A model generated the notes under the pieces. It saw nothing but the letters and a program-made list of their open reading frames with translations, did not search any database and had not been told where the DNA came from. From NCBI GenBank assembly GCA_030592025.1, contig JAUUZX010000057.1:1-7419 (forward strand): a stretch of 7,419 nt of DNA, in the 5' to 3' direction. A program made the translations under genes and the position numbers. The stretch is from a bacterium. GTDB lineage: Bacteria; Krumholzibacteriota; Krumholzibacteria; LZORAL124-64-63. Shown piece by piece: positions 2-6,801 of the stretch (position 1 is its first letter; every line of letters begins with the position of its first letter).

Positions 2-1048
2 CGGGACGGCTTCAACCTTGAGCCACGCTTCTTCTTCCGACGGAACACCGACGAATTCGTGCTCTTCCGCGACAACCCTGACATCTACACCAACGACCAC
101 GCCACCCGCAAATTCGCCGGCGAACTGCGGGGCATCGCCACCCTGGGCCGGCGGCACGCCCTGGCCCTGGGCGTCGAGGGCGTGTACGAGGACATCGAGA
201 GCACCGGCATTCGCGGTGGCAACGAGGTCTCCGCCCTGGGCGCGCACCTGCGCCGCCGGGTCTCGGCCTCGGCCGAGCTGGACCGCCACGGCACGCCCCT
301 GCGCTGGCAACTGGGCGCGCGGCTGGACGAGAGGTCGGTCCACGGCACCCGCCTCTCGGGCACGGGCGCGGCGTCCTACGACCTGACGCAGGTCTGGACG
401 GTCCGGGCCAGCCTGGGCAGCGTGTACCGCGTGCCCACCTTCACCGACCTCTACTACGAGGACCCGGCCAACGTGGGCGACCCCGATCTGGTGCCGGAGA
501 AGGGCTGGGCCTGGGACGCGGGCTTCGAGATGAACCGGCAGGCCTGGTTCGGCCGGGCGACCTACTTCGAGCGTCACGAGGAGGACCTCATCGATTGGAC
601 GTGGGCGCCGGGGGACTCCCTGTGGCGGGTCACGAACATCACCGAGGGGTTGGTCAGGGGCGTGGAGACCCGCGCCGGGTGGCGCCACGGCCGGGGCCAC
701 ACGGTCACCGTGGGTTGGACGTGGCTCGAGCGGGAGACCACGCTGCCGGACGGTTACGCCGCCAAGTATTCGCTGCTCGCCCCCCGCCACAACCTCGTGG
801 GCGCCGGCACCCTGGTGCTGCCCCATGGCCTGGCGCTGACCGCCACGGGCCGCTACCTGGCCCGGACCGACGGCCCCGATGACTTCCGCCACGCCTTCGT
901 GCTGGACGGACGTCTGGATTGGCGCCACCGCCGGGGTTGGTTCGTTTCGGTGGTGGGGACGAACCTGCTGGACCGTCGGGTCATGGAGGTGCCGGGGGTG
1001 CCGTTGGCCGGCGTGCTGCTCACGGGGAGTGTGGGGCGGCGGTTCTGA
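2..1048 (+). CDS. TonB-dependent outer-membrane receptor, C-terminal part (5' truncated)
   Basis: This is the C-terminal part of an outer-membrane beta-barrel that imports a scarce ligand using TonB energy. The frame is open from base 2, so the N-terminus, signal peptide, TonB box and plug lie off the window; 348 residues are visible. The sequence alternates polar and hydrophobic residues as barrel strands do. It contains a receptor signature around bases 419-515 (VYRVPTFTDLYY, then GDPDLVPEKGW), then EEDLIDW, a strand with RGVETRAGWRHG, and near the end GTNLLDRR, all in the order seen in BtuB and siderophore receptors. It ends in Phe (GRRF), the usual C-terminal residue of proteins inserted by the BAM machinery. 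The ligand cannot be told from this part; cobalamin or a ferric siderophore are the usual options. It converges on the P1 gene, with a 76-nt gap holding a hairpin. Family call is strong, substrate unknown. Confidence 0.93.
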   Translation, partial: RDGFNLEPRFFFRRNTDEFVLFRDNPDIYTNDHATRKFAGELRGIATLGRRHALALGVEGVYEDIESTGIRGGNEVSALGAHLRRRVSASAELDRHGTPLRWQLGARLDERSVHGTRLSGTGAASYDLTQVWTVRASLGSVYRVPTFTDLYYEDPANVGDPDLVPEKGWAWDAGFEMNRQAWFGRATYFERHEEDLIDWTWAPGDSLWRVTNITEGLVRGVETRAGWRHGRGHTVTVGWTWLERETTLPDGYAAKYSLLAPRHNLVGAGTLVLPHGLALTATGRYLARTDGPDDFRHAFVLDGRLDWRHRRGWFVSVVGTNLLDRRVMEVPGVPLAGVLLTGSVGRRF

Positions 1049-1124: not shown

Positions 1125-1742
1125 TTACCGGTAGAGCGCCTTCACGTCGCCCCATGACTGGTCCTTGTTGGGCACGGGATAGTTGATCTGGAAGATCGGA
1201 TTCGAAAAGTCCCCGGAAATGGAGAACGCCGGGCTGATGGAGAAATCGTCGTCGGCATCGGTGATGGCCATCTGACCGGGAAGGCTGGGAGCGTAGTACG
1301 GCTCGATGTACAACATGGAAACAGGCGGTTGTTCGAGAAATGTGCCCAGGGTGATCGTCGCCAGGAGGGCCGTCGCGAGGTCACCGGGAGTGGTGACGGG
1401 AATGAACCCGGCGCAGTAGAACGCATGGCTTACCGGATTGAAATCGAGGACGTTCGGTGGCAGCGCGACATTGTTGATGAACCAACCTTCCGGCACCCGG
1501 AGATTGAGTTCGAACCCGCCGATGGTCTCGATCTCCAAGCCGGTGTGTTGGTTCATGGGCTGGGTGCAGACGAGGTAGATATCGTAAAGTCCGGGGTCCC
1601 TCGCCACCAGAATGCTTTCGCTCACCCACAAAAGCGTAGGGGCCGGCGTGATGTACAAACCGATGTCGCTCTCTCCCCAGGACAGGGAGGTCGCGGTAGC
1701 AAGAAACAGAAATACGAGGACGGCGAGGAGCAATGGTCTCAT
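1125..1742 (-). CDS. Secreted array paralogue P1, unknown function
   Basis: A 205-residue exported protein of a family I do not recognise. Residues 1-21 form a signal peptide (MRP, a hydrophobic run, then ATSLS before WGES). The mature part shows the blocks shared by the array: IGLY at 27-30, GLYDIYLVC at 51-59, IGGFELNL at 74-81, LPPNVLDFN at 94-102, FYCAG at 108-112, MAITDADDDFSIS at 158-170, and a C-terminal WGDVKALYR. Cys59 and Cys110 are the only cysteines and are invariant in all five paralogues, suggesting a disulfide. The start is fixed by AGGAGGT five bases before ATG. It begins 22 nt after the P2 stop with no promoter or hairpin in between, so it is probably co-transcribed with P2. 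A hairpin lies 25 nt past its stop. Closest by eye to P2. Function unassigned; a binding or surface protein is only a guess. Confidence 0.85.
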   Translation of the reverse strand: MRPLLLAVLVFLFLATATSLSWGESDIGLYITPAPTLLWVSESILVARDPGLYDIYLVCTQPMNQHTGLEIETIGGFELNLRVPEGWFINNVALPPNVLDFNPVSHAFYCAGFIPVTTPGDLATALLATITLGTFLEQPPVSMLYIEPYYAPSLPGQMAITDADDDFSISPAFSISGDFSNPIFQINYPVPNKDQSWGDVKALYR

Positions 1743-1764
1743 GGAGAACCTCCTGGAAACCGAA

Positions 1765-2385
1765 CTACCTAAACAGAGCTTTCACATTTCCCCACGACTC
1801 GCCCTCGGTGGGCACGACGATATAGTTGATGCCGAGGACCGGCCAGGCATAGTCCCCGGAACTGGGGTACGCCGGGCTGATGGAGAATTCGTCATCGGCG
1901 TCGGTGATGGCCATCTGGCCGGGCAGACTGGGAGCGTGGTACGGCTCGATATGGATTCCGGCGGCCGGTGGTTGCTCCAGGAACGTGCCGATGGTGACCG
2001 TCGCCAATTGGGCCACCCAATCGTAACCGTATCTCGTTACAGGGATGAGTCCGGCACAATAGAAAGCATGGCTGGCCGAGTTGAAATCGAGGACATTCGG
2101 CGGCAGCGTGACACCATTGAAGAACCAGCCTTCCGGCAGTTGGATGTTGAGCTCGAATCCGCCGATGGTCTCGATCGCCCCACCGGTGTGGGCATTGATC
2201 GGCCGGAGGCAGATGAGGTGGATGTCATAAAGACCGGGTCCGTCGGCTGGCAGATGGGCTTCCATCCACCAGTAGGAATCAGGAGTCGGCGAAGTGTACA
2301 AACCGATATTGTTCTCGCCCCAGGCGATTGAGGTGGCAGGCGTCAGCAGCAAGGAAGTGACAGCGAGAAGGATAATGTGTCTCAT
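1765..2385 (-). CDS. Secreted array paralogue P2, unknown function
   Basis: A 206-residue exported protein of the same unrecognised family. The frame stays open upstream to 2484, but I place the start at 2385: GGGAGGT precedes this ATG at the same spacing as in P1 and P3, and the protein then begins MRHIILLAVTSLLL, a proper signal peptide ending near SIA before WGENN. Conserved blocks are IGLY at 27-30, GLYDIHLIC at 51-59, IGGFELNI at 74-81, LPPNVLDFN at 94-102, FYCAG at 108-112, MAITDADDEFSIS at 158-170 and a terminal WGNVKALFR. Cys59 and Cys110 are the conserved pair. Variable segments lie at about 34-48 and 116-126. Upstream it shares a 31-nt block with P3; downstream only 22 nt separate it from P1. 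It probably heads a P2-P1 transcript. Confidence 0.85.
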   Translation of the reverse strand: MRHIILLAVTSLLLTPATSIAWGENNIGLYTSPTPDSYWWMEAHLPADGPGLYDIHLICLRPINAHTGGAIETIGGFELNIQLPEGWFFNGVTLPPNVLDFNSASHAFYCAGLIPVTRYGYDWVAQLATVTIGTFLEQPPAAGIHIEPYHAPSLPGQMAITDADDEFSISPAYPSSGDYAWPVLGINYIVVPTEGESWGNVKALFR

Positions 2386-2459
2386 GGGGCACCTCCCGGA
2401 CAACATCATCACGGCCGGGTCGTGGTGGTCGACCCCGCCGTCCAACACAGATACATCGA

Positions 2460-2490
2460 ATTCTAGCATAGATGGCGCGCCCATTGGGGA
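2460..2490 (-). promoter_or_regulatory. Putative P2 promoter, block shared with P3
   Basis: A 31-nt block aligned without gaps to one upstream of P3. It ends in TAGAAT (2460-2465), a fair -10 match, preceded by TGC as in an extended -10. There is no good -35 at 17 nt; TCCCCA lies 19 nt upstream. Inside are CCCAATGGG and the perfect 8-bp palindrome GGCGCGCC. The -10 is 74 nt before the P2 start codon. The role is inferred from conservation and position. Confidence 0.45.
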
Positions 2491-2524
2491 TGTCGCCTGT
2501 TGGAATGCTTCGCCCTCAAGCTGA

Positions 2525-2550
2525 AGGCGCCGCCCTTTCGGACGGCGCCT
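2525..2550 (-). terminator. GC-rich GAAA-tetraloop hairpin after P3
   Basis: Its 24-nt core (2526-2549) is identical to the hairpin after P1 and lies at the same 25-nt distance from the stop codon, here that of P3. On the coding strand it is a 10-bp stem with one wobble pair, closed by GAAA, plus one outer A-U pair. It is followed by TTCAGC rather than a T-run, so it is either a weak intrinsic terminator or an mRNA-stabilising 3' stem. Confidence 0.6.
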
Positions 2551-2574
2551 CCTCTGTGCAGTACCTCGGTTCGG

Positions 2575-3195
2575 CTACTGGAAGAGCGCCTTCACGCCAC
2601 CCCACGACTGATCCTCGGTGGGCACGACTTCCCAGTTGATGCCCATGATAGGCCAGGTGTACTCCCCGCTACTTGGGTACGCCTGGCTGATGGAAAAGGC
2701 GTCGTCGGCATCGGTGATGGCCATGTGGCCGGGGATGCTCGGGGCTGCGAAAGAGGGTTCGATGAGGATTCCGGCGGGGGGCAGATTCTCCAGGAACGTG
2801 GCCAGCGTGACCGTTGCCAGCAGGGCCATTCCTGTGCTATTGGCTAGGTTTACGGGGATGTTCCCGGCACAGTAGAAAGCGTTGTTTGCCGAGTTAAAAT
2901 CGAGGACGTCCGGGGGCAAGGTAACGCCGTTGATGAACCATCCGTCCGGCATCACAAGATTGAGTTCGAATCCACCGATGGTCAGGATATCCGCACCGGT
3001 GTGTTGGTTGATCGGCTTGGTGCAGACGAGATAGACCTCGTACAGTCCAGGGCCCGGAGCCACCAGAAGGTGATTGCCGTACGCCCCATAGGGGGTCGGT
3101 GTCGTGTACAGACCGATGTTGTTCTCGCCCCAGGCCAGCGAGGTCGCGGGCGTCAGAAGCAGCAATGCCAGGACAACGAGGAGCAATGGTCTCAT
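2575..3195 (-). CDS. Secreted array paralogue P3, unknown function
   Basis: A 206-residue exported protein of the array family. The signal peptide spans residues 1-21 (MRPLLLVVLALLLL, ending SLA before WGENN). Conserved blocks are IGLY at 27-30, GLYEVYLVC at 50-58, IGGFELNL at 73-80, LPPDVLDFN at 93-101, FYCAG at 107-111, MAITDADDAFSIS at 158-170, and the end WGGVKALFQ, where the usual final Arg is Gln. Cys58 and Cys109 are the invariant pair. GGAGGT five bases before the ATG fixes the start. Upstream is the 31-nt promoter-like block shared with P2; downstream, at 25 nt, is the GAAA hairpin. P3 thus forms a complete promoter-gene-hairpin module of about 0.8 kb. Its mature N-terminus and C-terminal third resemble P2 most, while its IPG-HMAI block matches P4. 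Function unknown. Confidence 0.85.
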   Translation of the reverse strand: MRPLLLVVLALLLLTPATSLAWGENNIGLYTTPTPYGAYGNHLLVAPGPGLYEVYLVCTKPINQHTGADILTIGGFELNLVMPDGWFINGVTLPPDVLDFNSANNAFYCAGNIPVNLANSTGMALLATVTLATFLENLPPAGILIEPSFAAPSIPGHMAITDADDAFSISQAYPSSGEYTWPIMGINWEVVPTEDQSWGGVKALFQ

Positions 3196-3268
3196 GGGGT
3201 ACCTCCGGAAGTAGTGATGGTGCCACGGTTCGGGCGTTCAATCCCGCCGTCCTGTGCAGATTGTCAGG

Positions 3269-3299
3269 ATTCTAGCGCATTTGGTGCACCCAGTGGGAA
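3269..3299 (-). promoter_or_regulatory. Putative P3 promoter, block shared with P2
   Basis: A 31-nt block matching the one before P2 without gaps. TAGAAT (3269-3274) is the -10 candidate; TTCCCA lies 19 nt upstream as a poor -35. It contains CCCACTGGG and the perfect palindrome GGTGCACC (3283-3290), which differs from the P2 copy at two positions that mirror each other, so symmetry is kept. The -10 is 73 nt before the start codon. A ten-base match GGACGGCGGG follows at nearly the same distance in both copies. Confidence 0.45.
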
Positions 3300-3326
3300 T
3301 ACCGACTGATGGACCGCCCTGCCACA

Positions 3327-3366
3327 AAGTCGACGGCGCCGTTCCGGGCGACGGCGCCTTCGACTT
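3327..3366 (-). terminator. Long GC-rich hairpin after P4
   Basis: An inverted repeat with an outer 7-bp stem (3327-3333 with 3360-3366), one mismatch, and an inner 8-bp stem (3335-3342 with 3351-3358) around an 8-nt loop. The inner stem shares GGCGCCG with the P1 and P3 hairpins and also lies 25 nt from the stop codon, here that of P4. Loop and outer stem differ from the other two copies. There is no T-run on the minus strand (TTTG is the nearest). Confidence 0.65.
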
Positions 3367-3383
3367 CGAGAGTGGAGAACGGG

Positions 3384-4028
3384 CTACCTGAACAGTGCCT
3401 TCACGTCGCCCCAGGCGCGGTCCTCCGTGGGGACGACGAAGTAGTTGATGGCCAGGACCGGAACATCGTAGTAGAGGCGCGACGGGTCCACCCTGGTGAG
3501 GGAGAAGGCGTCATCGGCGTCGGTGATGGCCATGTGCCCGGGGATGCTCGGAGCTGCGAAGTAGGGCGCCAGGTACACGTAGCCGGCCTCAGGCGTTTCC
3601 GAGAAGCAGCCCAGGGTGACCGTCGCCAGCAGGGCGGTCGAGAGGGGCCCCACGGTGATGACGGGCACCTGACCCGCGCAGTAGAACGAGTTGTTGGCGC
3701 TGTTGAAGTCCAGCACGCATGCCGGCAACGTGGCGGCCTGGATGAACCAGCCGTCGGGGACCTCGAGGTTGAACTCGAAGCCGCCGAGCATGCTGATGTT
3801 GCAGGCGGTGGCGTCGTTGCACGGGTTGATGCACAGGATGTAGACATCGTACAGGCCCGGCGTCGGCGCGATCAGGCGGGTCTCGGCTGCCTGGGCGGCC
3901 GGTACCCTCAGGCTGTTCAGGTCGTCGAGCGCAGGGGTGCTGAACACCCCGATGCGGTTCTCCGTTGCCTGCGCGACGCACGCCATGCAAAGGACAAGAA
4001 CGACGGTGGCCAAAATCATGGTCCGCAT
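3384..4028 (-). CDS. Secreted array paralogue P4, unknown function, extra cysteines
   Basis: A 214-residue exported member of the family, clearly diverged from P1-P3. The signal peptide is residues 1-21 (ending VAQA before TENRIG); the LCMAC stretch is not a convincing lipobox. Conserved blocks are GLYDVYILC at 58-66, LGGFEFNL at 81-88, VLDFNSANNSFYCAG at 105-119, MAITDADDAFSL at 166-177, and a terminal WGDVKALFR. Cys66 and Cys117 are the family pair, but there are four more mature cysteines (70, 76, 104, 141), unique to this copy. The segment after the first block is about 9 residues longer (roughly 33-56). GGAGG precedes the ATG. A near-consensus promoter lies about 84 nt upstream, and a hairpin 25 nt past the stop. 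GC looks higher than in P1-P3. Function unknown. Confidence 0.85.
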   Translation of the reverse strand: MRTMILATVVLVLCMACVAQATENRIGVFSTPALDDLNSLRVPAAQAAETRLIAPTPGLYDVYILCINPCNDATACNISMLGGFEFNLEVPDGWFIQAATLPACVLDFNSANNSFYCAGQVPVITVGPLSTALLATVTLGCFSETPEAGYVYLAPYFAAPSIPGHMAITDADDAFSLTRVDPSRLYYDVPVLAINYFVVPTEDRAWGDVKALFR

Positions 4029-4111
4029 GGTCTCCCTCCTCTTGTTGTGCCCGGATAAGAATCCCCCCAGCGGTGAGCCGATGGTGGCCCACCTCGAACG
4101 TTAATGAATTT

Positions 4112-4140
4112 ATTATATCATAATTTGGGGTTTGTGGCAA
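4112..4140 (-). promoter_or_regulatory. Near-consensus sigma-70 promoter for P4
   Basis: On the minus strand, TTGCCA (4135-4140) is followed by a 17-nt spacer and a perfect TATAAT (4112-4117). This matches the housekeeping sigma consensus at 11 of 12 positions with ideal spacing. Transcription would start near 4105, giving a leader of about 77 nt before P4. It sits in an AT-rich stretch (about 4100-4190) that stands out in this GC-rich window. Confidence 0.8.
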
Positions 4141-4165
4141 GGGTTAAGGTCTGTAACTGACATTT

Positions 4166-4178
4166 TAACAGTATGTTA
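4166..4178. promoter_or_regulatory. Small palindrome upstream of the P4 promoter
   Basis: TAACAGTATGTTA is an inverted repeat with 5-bp arms around 3 nt, centred about 67 nt upstream of the predicted P4 start site, where an activator could bind. Short palindromes are common in AT-rich DNA, so this is only a candidate operator. Confidence 0.2.
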
Positions 4179-4243
4179 TAGTGATTTCGAAGAAGTGAAG
4201 CCGACGTGGGGCTAGGTGCTGGAGGTTCGTGTAAGCGACTGGC

Positions 4244-4870
4244 CTAGGGGCGATAGAGCGCCTTCACGTCGCCCCAGGTTACGTTCTCGTTGGGCAGGTA
4301 ATAGGGATTGATACCCATGACTGGTATGTCGAAGTTGCCGGAAGTCGGGAATGCGGGGCTCAGGGCGCCGTCACGTTCAGCATTGGCGATGGCCATGTGG
4401 CCGGCCAAGCTGGGCATGAATGGGTGGGGCGACAGGAAGACGCCGCCCGTTTCCGGCGCGAACGTCAGCAACACGAGGGTGGCTAGGAGCACCGGGCCCT
4501 CGCCGGCGGGGAACACGCCCCCGCACATGAAGCCGTCCGGCGTGATGTCCACGTCGATGATCCCCGCCGGGAGTATCGCATCGTGGAGGATCCAGCTCCT
4601 GGGCAAGACCACACCCAGTTCGAAGCCCCCCAGCAACTCGATGGGGGCGTCGGCGGCTAGGTCGTAGGGGTTGAAGCAGACGAGGTACACGTCGTACAGT
4701 CCGAAGGAGTTGGCCCATAGGATCCGCTCCTGGTCGAGTCCGTAGGACCAGGCCTGGGACGGCGTGGGCGTGGTGTAGACCCCGATGTTGTTGATGTTCC
4801 AGGCAGGGGCCGCGGTCGGGACGAGGGCGCAGAGAAGCGCGATGGCTAGGATGGTCAGGATGGTTTTCAT
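4244..4870 (-). CDS. Secreted array paralogue P5, most diverged member
   Basis: A 208-residue exported protein, the most diverged of the five. The signal peptide ends around APA (residue 23) before WNINNIG. It keeps IGVYTTPTP at 29-37, GLYDVYLVC at 57-65, LLGGFELG at 79-86, a cysteine in FMCGG at 114-118, GHMAI at 157-161, SPAFPTSG at 171-178 and the C-terminal WGDVKALYR, here followed by one Pro. Cys65 and Cys116 match the invariant pair. It has lost the VLDFN block and the acidic TDADD block (here ANAERDGA). The start is supported by GAGGAG seven bases upstream. It has its own TTGACA promoter and no GGCGCC hairpin after it, so it looks like an independent unit rather than part of the P4-P1 modules. 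Function unknown. Confidence 0.85.
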   Translation of the reverse strand: MKTILTILAIALLCALVPTAAPAWNINNIGVYTTPTPSQAWSYGLDQERILWANSFGLYDVYLVCFNPYDLAADAPIELLGGFELGVVLPRSWILHDAILPAGIIDVDITPDGFMCGGVFPAGEGPVLLATLVLLTFAPETGGVFLSPHPFMPSLAGHMAIANAERDGALSPAFPTSGNFDIPVMGINPYYLPNENVTWGDVKALYRP

Positions 4871-4957: not shown

Positions 4958-5368
4958 TCAAGGTCTCCACCCCCGCAGCGTCTGGATCTCGCTGCCCGTG
5001 AGCTTGGACTCGCCGTGGAGGTACATGTAGACCGGCATGGGCATTTCGCGCTTTTCGATAGCTTCGAGCGCCTCCACGGCCAAGTGCTGCTGCTGGCGCA
5101 GGCTGTAGGTGTTCCAGTCGGAAAAATTCATTTCCTCGCGCCCCTCCTTCACGTGCTTGGCCACCAGCCAGGACATGGGCGCGACCTTGGAATACCAGGG
5201 CCAGCGCGTCTGGTTCGAGTGGCAGTCGTAGCAGGAGCGCACGAGGATATCGCGGACCTCGGTCGGGCCGTGGAGGTCGTTCATGACCGGCGGGTTCGTC
5301 CGGTCGACGGGCACGAACTGGATGGCGACCACCACCAGCAAGACGATCAGCGTGGAGCGGTTCTTCAT
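4958..5368 (-). CDS. Haem-binding-domain protein (c-type CxxCH), membrane-tethered
   Basis: A 136-residue protein resembling the small haem-binding domain family (Haem_bd type). Residues 5-20 are hydrophobic and act as a signal or membrane anchor, putting the rest in the periplasm. CYDCH at 46-50 is a c-type haem attachment site, with Cys46 and Cys49 for the thioether bonds and His50 as an axial ligand. It is followed by SNQTRWPWYSKVAPMSW (51-67), the hallmark stretch of this family, then VKEGREEMNFSDW (73-85) and a C-terminal LHGESKLTGSEIQTLRGW. Methionines at 109 and 111 could supply the second ligand; that is inference. Length is normal for the family. The frame stays open far upstream, but the ATG at 5368 has an AGGAGGAG site and begins the hydrophobic run. 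Only 8 nt separate it from the MATE stop. A redox or electron-transfer role is likely; partner unknown. Confidence 0.88.
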   Translation of the reverse strand: MKNRSTLIVLLVVVAIQFVPVDRTNPPVMNDLHGPTEVRDILVRSCYDCHSNQTRWPWYSKVAPMSWLVAKHVKEGREEMNFSDWNTYSLRQQQHLAVEALEAIEKREMPMPVYMYLHGESKLTGSEIQTLRGWRP

Positions 5369-5379
5369 GACTCCTCCTA
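5369..5379 (-). promoter_or_regulatory. Ribosome-binding site overlapping the MATE stop codon
   Basis: On the minus strand the MATE stop TAG is followed directly by GAGGAGTC and then the ATG of the haem-binding gene, so the TAGGAGGAG Shine-Dalgarno contains the stop codon. Ribosomes finishing MATE would land on this start, which suggests coupled translation. Confidence 0.7.
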
Positions 5380-6801
5380 CTTGAAGATCTCGATTTTCTG
5401 CCAGGCCCCCGAGCGGAAGCGCTGCCACATGAACACACCCTGGAGCAGGTAACACACCGACGCGCCGAGCCAGGCCAGGACCACGTCGCCGGCCTGGTGC
5501 ACGATGATCCACCAGGTCAGCGGGATGAAGCCGCCCCACATGATCACGAGGGTGACGAGCATGGTGTAGCGCGTGTCGCCCGCCCCCTGCAGGATGCCGC
5601 TGCTGAGCATGCGGATCCCGTCGAAGTACTGGAAGACCGCCGCCGCCACCACGAGGGCCGCGCCCAGGGCGAGCACCTCGGGGTCGTTGGTGAAGACGCG
5701 AAAGATGTGGTGGCGGGCCAGCACGAGTACGACGGCCAGGGCCACCGAGTAGTAGGTGCCGAGCTTGTAGGCCTGCCGTCCGTAGTGGGCCGCGGTCTCC
5801 GGTTGGCCCCGCCCGATCCAGTTGCCCGTGAGTACCCCGGCGGCGGTGGTCAGGCCCCAGAGGGGCATGAAGCTGAAGCTCAACACCTGGATCGTGATCT
5901 GACTGGCGGCGAGCTGCACCGCGCCCGTGGTGCCCACGAAGATCGTGAACATGAGGAAGCCGCCCATGTCGATGAAGCCTTCCCACGCCGCCGGCAGGCC
6001 CACCCGCACCATGTTGGTGATGGCCCGCATGTCCGGTCGCTGCACCCGGTGCAGGCCGTACTTCCGGCGCAGCCGCGGCGCCAGGGCCCAGGCCACCAGG
6101 GCGATCGCGTTGAAGGCGGTGCCGATGCTCGTGCCGATGGCCGCCCCCTGCACGCCCATGGCCGGCACGGCGAACCAGGTGCGTCCGGCCAACTCGAACC
6201 CCGACCAACCGAAGATGAGCCACACGTCCAGCACCACGTTCACCGCGTTGCCGATGATGCCCGCGTACATGGGCACCTTCACGTCGCGCCGCCCCTGGAA
6301 GAAGCCCATGAGGGCGAAGGTCAACTGGGTGAAGACCGCGCTCAGGCTGCGGTAGCGGATGTAGACGTAGGTCAGGGCCTGGACGTCCTCGGGGTTGCGG
6401 GTCCAGGGTAGGGCGACCCAGCTGTACCAGCCGAGGGCCATGAGGATGATGCCGGTGACCAGGGCGATCCACACTCCCTGCCAGGTGTAGCTGGCGACGG
6501 CATCGTCGTCGCCCCGTCCCCAGGCCTGGGACACGAAGGTACCCGTGATGCGGGAGAGGTTGTTGAACAGGGAGTAGGTGGCCCAGGTGAGCATGCCGCC
6601 CAGCCCCGCCGCGGCCAGGGCCAGGACGCTGACCCGGCCCAGGAGCGCCGTGTCGACGGTCCACATGAGGGTCTGGGAGAGCATGGTGAGGATGGTCGGC
6701 GCAGCGAGGCCGAGGATCTCCCGACCCTGATGCACGCGCAGGCGCGCCCAGGTTCCCGGGGGCGCGGCAGGTGACGGACTGGCAGGGGTGGGGCGGGGCA
6801 T
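5377..6801 (-). CDS. MATE-family multidrug/cation antiporter
   Basis: A 474-residue inner-membrane transporter of the MATE (NorM/DinF-like) family, which exports organic cations, drugs or metabolites in exchange for Na+ or H+. About twelve hydrophobic segments are seen between residues 29 and 460, in two similar halves (about 29-240 and 262-460). Typical motifs are VDTALLG at 49-55, a QAWGRGD at 92-98, NAVNVVLDVWLIFG at 185-198, and SGILQGAGDTR at 401-411. The first 25 residues are Pro/Ala-rich and probably cytosolic. Length is normal. The start at 6801 has an AGGAAG site upstream. Its stop codon lies inside the ribosome-binding region of the haem-binding gene, so the two are probably one operon with coupled translation. 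It is divergent from aroA. The substrate cannot be predicted from the sequence. Confidence 0.93.
   Translation of the reverse strand: MPRPTPASPSPAAPPGTWARLRVHQGREILGLAAPTILTMLSQTLMWTVDTALLGRVSVLALAAAGLGGMLTWATYSLFNNLSRITGTFVSQAWGRGDDDAVASYTWQGVWIALVTGIILMALGWYSWVALPWTRNPEDVQALTYVYIRYRSLSAVFTQLTFALMGFFQGRRDVKVPMYAGIIGNAVNVVLDVWLIFGWSGFELAGRTWFAVPAMGVQGAAIGTSIGTAFNAIALVAWALAPRLRRKYGLHRVQRPDMRAITNMVRVGLPAAWEGFIDMGGFLMFTIFVGTTGAVQLAASQITIQVLSFSFMPLWGLTTAAGVLTGNWIGRGQPETAAHYGRQAYKLGTYYSVALAVVLVLARHHIFRVFTNDPEVLALGAALVVAAAVFQYFDGIRMLSSGILQGAGDTRYTMLVTLVIMWGGFIPLTWWIIVHQAGDVVLAWLGASVCYLLQGVFMWQRFRSGAWQKIEIFK

Follow-up and report, generated by a model that had tools for sequence, protein, structure and literature searches.

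Sorting tails of the PEP-CTERM type occur in many copies per genome. Among the C-terminal domains (CTDs) of the type IX secretion system (T9SS), short ones of 43–55 residues, most with GxY in motif D, are described for Prevotella intermedia (PMC11969387), and green fluorescent protein is reported to be secreted in Porphyromonas gingivalis when it carries the 22 C-terminal residues of the HBP35 CTD (PMC4804311). In the GlyGly-CTERM/rhombosortase system, signal-peptide-bearing proteins are alike only at their C-termini and have homologues with other tails (PMC3237569). Here we describe a C-terminal tag of about 17 residues that closes each of five tandem genes, P1–P5, in a 7,419-nucleotide (nt) stretch of bacterial DNA (contig JAUUZX010000057.1, referred to as the window). 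Going by named relatives, the phylum that carries the tag is Krumholzibacteriota. The tandem family is real and modest by itself; the tail is the main finding.

The tag reads VPxE(D/T)x(S/T)(W/F)(G/S)x(V/L)K(A/S)L(Y/F)R followed by the stop codon. It lies, on the minus strand, at 1128..1178 in P1 (the last 17 codons), 1768..1818 in P2, 2578..2628 in P3, 3387..3437 in P4 and 4250..4300 in P5. In the wider family alignment identity to P3 falls as low as 25%, yet the final WGxVKALYR is kept and forms the most conserved block. An earlier sequence-only reading of the window recognized the tandem exported family and guessed its fold, both of which stand, but missed this block. Twenty-five family members (from the window, a protein search and the genomes G001 and G002) supplied their final 25 residues for a profile. 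Run at E<=0.1 against 80 genomes of the phylum (G001–G080), it gave 1754 matches in 80/80 genomes (median about 19, range 2–66), while the reversed profile, used as a control, gave 6 matches in 6/80. WGxVKALYR is no family trait: it is common to many exported proteins that share no other detectable homology.

For closer analysis 70 open reading frames (ORFs) were fetched, 40 of them picked with long ORFs and core-only matches favoured and 30 being the best in G001 of 46 at E<=10; three genes came twice, leaving 67 distinct hits, a best-scoring or hand-chosen rather than random set. Sixty-six of the 70 end exactly at the match and 2 more within one residue, and 65 of the 67 distinct hits end within one residue of the stop. 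A few extra residues follow the tag in L143, L144, L123 and L087, so the signal may tolerate short extensions. Signal peptides were called in 64/67 tagged proteins versus 13/173 other ORFs of the same loci, by a simple hydropathy rule applied at the best start codon per ORF, with control ORFs of at least 150 residues, most of which are probably not genes. After removal of the first 22 and last 25 residues (one of the 67 was then too short), single-linkage clustering at phmmer E<1e-3 divided 66 bodies into 27 clusters: one of 23, in which the window's family is represented by its G001 members, a beta-helix cluster of 11, five with 2–3 proteins and 20 singletons, the doubtful L094 among the latter. 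With one representative per cluster, the commonest residues counted back from the stop are R-1, Y/F-2, L-3, S/A-4, K-5, V-6, G/S-8, W-9, S/T-10, E-13, P-15 and V-16. Synonymous codons vary wherever the residue permits (ten tag columns were tabulated), and the tag is therefore conserved as protein and not as DNA.

Domain scans of the 66 tagged proteins at E<=0.01 matched Pfam beta-helix (11 members), CHRD (2.3e-19), CBM_20 (6.7e-17), DUF4114 (8.3e-6) and a few more families, including weaker matches to Lectin_C (1.8e-4) and PPC (0.0052). From NCBIfam, choice-of-anchor E matched at 67.3 bits (cut-off 23.8) and choice-of-anchor J at 29.9 bits (cut-off 30); such domains are named for bearing different sorting tails in different lineages. 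When 20 tagged proteins were scanned one at a time against NCBIfam, none of the stretches listed covered the WGxVKALYR core, and an 'invert_tail' match in L093 was set aside because it spans residues 5–52 and not the tag. In the predicted structure of P3 the tag forms a short, low-confidence helix (198–204) outside the folded core; in that of a tagged CHRD protein, residues 31–170 have block means of 91–97 and a low-confidence terminal helix (183–190) again lies outside the core. The open-access literature searched contained no mention of the tag, the plant papers that matched tag strings being judged unrelated, and nothing on C-terminal signals of secreted proteins in Krumholzibacteriota.

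The tag exchanges with other tails on homologous proteins. With one tagged CHRD protein as query, 300 relatives came up, of which 120 were listed. By a simple rule the strict tag closes 16 of these 120; another 74 finish with a hydrophobic segment plus a basic end and 16 with the hydrophobic segment only. The remaining 14 show neither, but five of them carry variants of the tag, which brings the tag to 21/120 by a relaxed pattern. Among the listed relatives two go under the name MYXO-CTERM and one under VPLPA-CTERM, and a loose VPEP-like pattern fits 92/120, at least one tagged protein (P0033) among them. The tag and the PEP-CTERM-type tails are found at the same place, behind the CHRD domain. 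The tag pattern fitted none of 120 MATE proteins, a weak control as MATE proteins are not exported. The CHRD relatives P0032–P0046 show the variants TWGRVKALYR, SWGRIKDLYR and SWGAIRNLYR, several without the VPxE lead, and may come from other phyla. Beta-helix relatives of a tagged protein occur in 44/80 genomes; thirty loci, the best from 30 genomes, were fetched. The tag or a variant closes 26 of them (9 by the strict pattern), and the other 4 bear a T9SS type A domain instead, all four above the TIGR04183 cut-off. The tag thus combines homology limited to the C-terminus, a place at its extreme end, signal peptides on its carriers and other tails on their homologues, four of the features by which sorting tags are recognized.

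The candidate machinery is widespread. SprA_N was found in 67/80 genomes and both Peptidase C25 and the type A CTD in 80/80; the T9SS is therefore available almost everywhere. In G001 a C25 protein with a FlgD-like C-terminal domain (L001:13370-17740) directly follows a five-gene cluster of the window's family and resembles PorU (NF033707, E 4.8e-40, but 137 bits versus a cut-off of 420). We consider it fairly probable that the tag, which has no membrane helix, serves as a short C-terminal signal for sorting, possibly read by the T9SS. Each P gene would then encode one Sec-exported cohesin-fold domain, a short linker and the tag, the latter being a mobile sorting signal borne by many otherwise different exported proteins in each genome of the phylum. 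After Sec export the core would fold in the periplasm and leave the tail exposed, probably as a short amphipathic helix that presents Trp, Val and Leu/Tyr on a single face and finishes in Lys/Arg. An export or anchoring receptor in the outer membrane, most likely one of the T9SS, would bind this tail, and the protein, possibly after cleavage, would be displayed on the cell surface or released from it.

Several observations weigh against this reading, or against its breadth. The best tag match reaches only E 0.0028–0.006 in seven genomes, where presence is uncertain, and two of the 67 distinct hits (L087 and L094, the second probably spurious) run 8 and 5 residues past the tag. Clusters based on phmmer would miss remote homology among the tagged bodies, and the relaxed patterns behind the 26/30 and 21/120 were written after the tails had been seen, the strict ones giving 9 and 16. 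With regard to the machinery, C25 number was rejected as a predictor of tag number, the two showing no clear correlation (rho 0.19, p 0.09), whereas genome size does track the number of tags (rho 0.58). Tag-poor genomes have T9SS genes too, and co-distribution consequently does not single the T9SS out. TIGR04183 is not among the 15 families listed for the 66 tagged proteins at E<=0.01, and the tag is therefore not a CTD as now modelled.

These last points bear on a different reader for the same signal, namely a receptor or sortase dedicated to the phylum and separate from the T9SS, which would serve only the full-length type A domains. This proposal is somewhat unlikely but has support: the scan of the 66 tagged proteins gave no CTD match, and the distribution across genomes points the same way. 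The 40 genomes G038–G076 plus G002 form the most tag-rich block (mean 32.8 tags), while the 25 genomes G013–G037 average 6.4; SprA is present in most genomes of both blocks and C25 in all, and another factor must therefore set tag number. Exosortase, which tends to be missing where tags are numerous, was rejected both as the tag machinery and as the dedicated receptor: it was matched in 29/80 genomes, all of them among the 40 outside the most tag-rich block (0/40 within it), and none was found in G001, so that it is not needed for the tag. Conversely, 21 of the 25 genomes of the tag-poor block have it. Strict mutual exclusion was also rejected, since G003, G007, G009 and G080 combine exosortase with 24–29 tag matches each. 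The blocks look like clades and do not prove that either system replaced the other. What speaks against a separate receptor is the swap of tag and T9SS domain within one beta-helix family and the PorU-like gene next to the family cluster in G001; moreover, the analysis found no candidate for such a receptor.

Distinctly less probable is that the tag is no translocation signal and acts outside the cell as a binding or assembly peptide, docking its carriers to a shared scaffold or oligomerizing them. A short helix outside the core in the models of two unrelated families would suit such a role, as would the nature of the cores (cohesin-fold, lectin, CHRD and beta-helix), which are typical surface modules; however, the tag sits where relatives carry PEP-CTERM-type and T9SS localization signals, which argues for the sorting function that we favour.

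The fold of the window's proteins raises a further possibility. The predicted structure of P3, the protein chosen for modelling, has a mean pLDDT (predicted local distance difference test score) of 89.7 and a cohesin-like beta-sandwich core, in keeping with the guess made from the sequence; besides cohesins, the Foldseek list behind this comparison contains beta-sandwich chains of other kinds, pilin included, at low template-modelling scores. A PDB sequence search with the family profile returned only seven MeCP2 rows at E>=0.74. That P1–P5 are the anchoring cohesins of a cohesin–dockerin system is nevertheless very improbable and was rejected: although the predicted fold resembles cohesin modules (e.g. 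2vo8, 2xdh), identity to them is 11%, the cohesin model (PF00963) matches none of 39 family members at E<=1, and Dockerin_1 is sparse, occurring in 36/80 genomes (1–11 each), with none at E<=0.001 in G001 despite the 14 family matches there. Separately, the C-terminus of a short exported protein at L001:8179-8838 resembles a dockerin pair by eye, but no model of Pfam or NCBIfam matches the protein at E<=0.01.

The five genes all lie on the minus strand: P1 at 1125..1742 (205 aa), P2 at 1765..2385 (206 aa), P3 at 2575..3195 (206 aa), P4 at 3384..4028 (214 aa) and P5 at 4244..4870 (208 aa, the most diverged, with one extra Pro after the tag). P2 starts at the ATG at 2385, before its signal peptide, the listed ORF of 239 aa beginning further upstream; it lies 22 nt upstream of P1, a spacing from which the two are probably co-transcribed. 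A signal-peptide-like segment opens all five proteins, in agreement with the description of five adjacent exported proteins of 205–214 residues. Identities to P1 over the alignment are 62% (P2), 62% (P3), 50% (P4) and 40% (P5), reproducing the proposed order of a close P1–P3 with P4 and then P5 more distant. DNA repeats run in register across the genes at a spacing of 643–863 nt; this, the full-length identities of 40–62% and the relatives outside the window place the likeness beyond chance. The conserved blocks that had been named are present (GLYDVYLVC-like, GGFEL, FYCAG and MAITDADD), with the variants GGFEF in P4 and FMCGG and MAIANAERD in P5. The two cysteines said to be invariant are so in P1–P5 (C59 and C110 of P1); among 22 members only the second is near-invariant, and they therefore form no obligate pair. 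No known family was recognized either here or before: the Pfam scan of P1–P5 gave no match at E<=1 and the NCBIfam scan one chance-level row (P5, E 0.36, far under the cut-off).

A profile built from the five sequences, as had been suggested, finds relatives beyond the window. Out of 7997 candidates scored, 24 proteins match at E<=0.01, five of which are P1–P5, which match by construction, and the best 17 of the 19 others reach E 1e-75 to 1e-45. In the genome collection one family locus was located in the metagenome-assembled genome (MAG) Gpa_8 (G001) and another in a MAG of Candidatus Krumholzibacteriia (G002), and whole-genome searches gave 14 matches in G001 (clusters of 5, 3 and 2 plus four singles) and 6 in G002. 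Contig C31 of G001 and the window agree in gene order (EPSP, MATE, Haem_bd, family, TonB), but C31 holds three family genes versus five, so that copy number differs between related genomes; its syntenic copy of P4 is 64% identical. In a tree of 22 members P1–P3 form one clade (support 98/97), P4 clusters with its counterpart in G001 and with environmental proteins (100/99), and P5 is a long separate branch, the deeper forks, including that of P5, being weakly supported. By these groupings P4 is older than the split from G001, and the multiplication of P1–P3 most likely came afterwards, in the lineage of the window. The stepwise amplification proposed earlier thus stands in a modified form, with P1–P3 as one clade, P4 grouped with environmental relatives and a weak placement of P5.

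On one side the family is flanked by the 3′ part of a TonB-dependent receptor gene (2..1048, plus strand), its syntenic downstream neighbour, and on the other by the syntenic genes for a Haem_bd (PF14376) protein (4958..5365, minus) and a MATE efflux transporter (5377..6801, minus) and by EPSP synthase, as assigned by Pfam scan and synteny; the MATE protein shares 82% identity with its counterpart on C31 and 80% with a Candidatus Krumholzibacteriota protein, which makes that phylum the most likely source of the window. Minus-strand hairpins with GGCGCC arms and no run of U lie 24–49 nt beyond the stops of P1 (1076..1101), P3 (2526..2551; 96% identical to that of P1) and P4 (3335..3360; 73%), with folding z of -3.1 to -4.1; the stretch after P5 has no such fold, a terminator scan found 0 and an Rfam scan gave 0 matches. 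Despite these hairpins, the idea that the shared tail is chance or a DNA or RNA element, such as a terminator, overlapping the stop codon can hardly be right, given that codons vary at every tabulated conserved residue that has synonyms and that the reversed profile gave so few matches. Promoter-like sites with 11/12 consensus positions lie on the minus strand upstream of P4 (4112-4140, in an AT-rich stretch) and P5 (4912-4941); the region holds 4 such sites versus 1.4 expected.

A wider claim, which we advance only tentatively, is that the tag represents a phylum-wide class of signals of about 17 residues that has neither membrane helix nor CTD fold and has its own receptor, being the short tag in use in the half of the phylum where searches gave no exosortase, and able to replace a T9SS domain on the same family. 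If true, it would offer a simple rule to list many exported proteins (about 22 per genome) in a phylum seen here as MAGs, name a signal that the scanned models do not seem to hold, make the window's family surface-displayed cohesin-fold modules, and raise the question of whether a helix of fewer than 20 residues can do the job of a folded T9SS export domain.

Compared with known systems, the tag resembles the T9SS type A CTD (TIGR04183, PF18962) in being C-terminal on Sec-exported proteins, without a membrane helix and with a Lys/Arg-containing end, and in being interchangeable with it in the beta-helix family; it differs in length, the TIGR04183 model having 72 positions versus some 17 residues. 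Were it read by the T9SS, it would stand at the extreme of the series that runs through HBP35 and the short P. intermedia CTDs. PEP-CTERM, VPLPA-CTERM and MYXO-CTERM tails share its position after the CHRD domain but consist of a motif, a membrane helix, which the tag lacks, and a basic cluster, and searches found their exosortase neither in the 40 genomes of the most tag-rich block nor in G001. With GlyGly-CTERM (PMC3237569) the tag shares its logic of carriers with signal peptides that are alike only C-terminally and whose homologues bear other tails; it differs in having no membrane helix and in that no co-distributed protease was found here.

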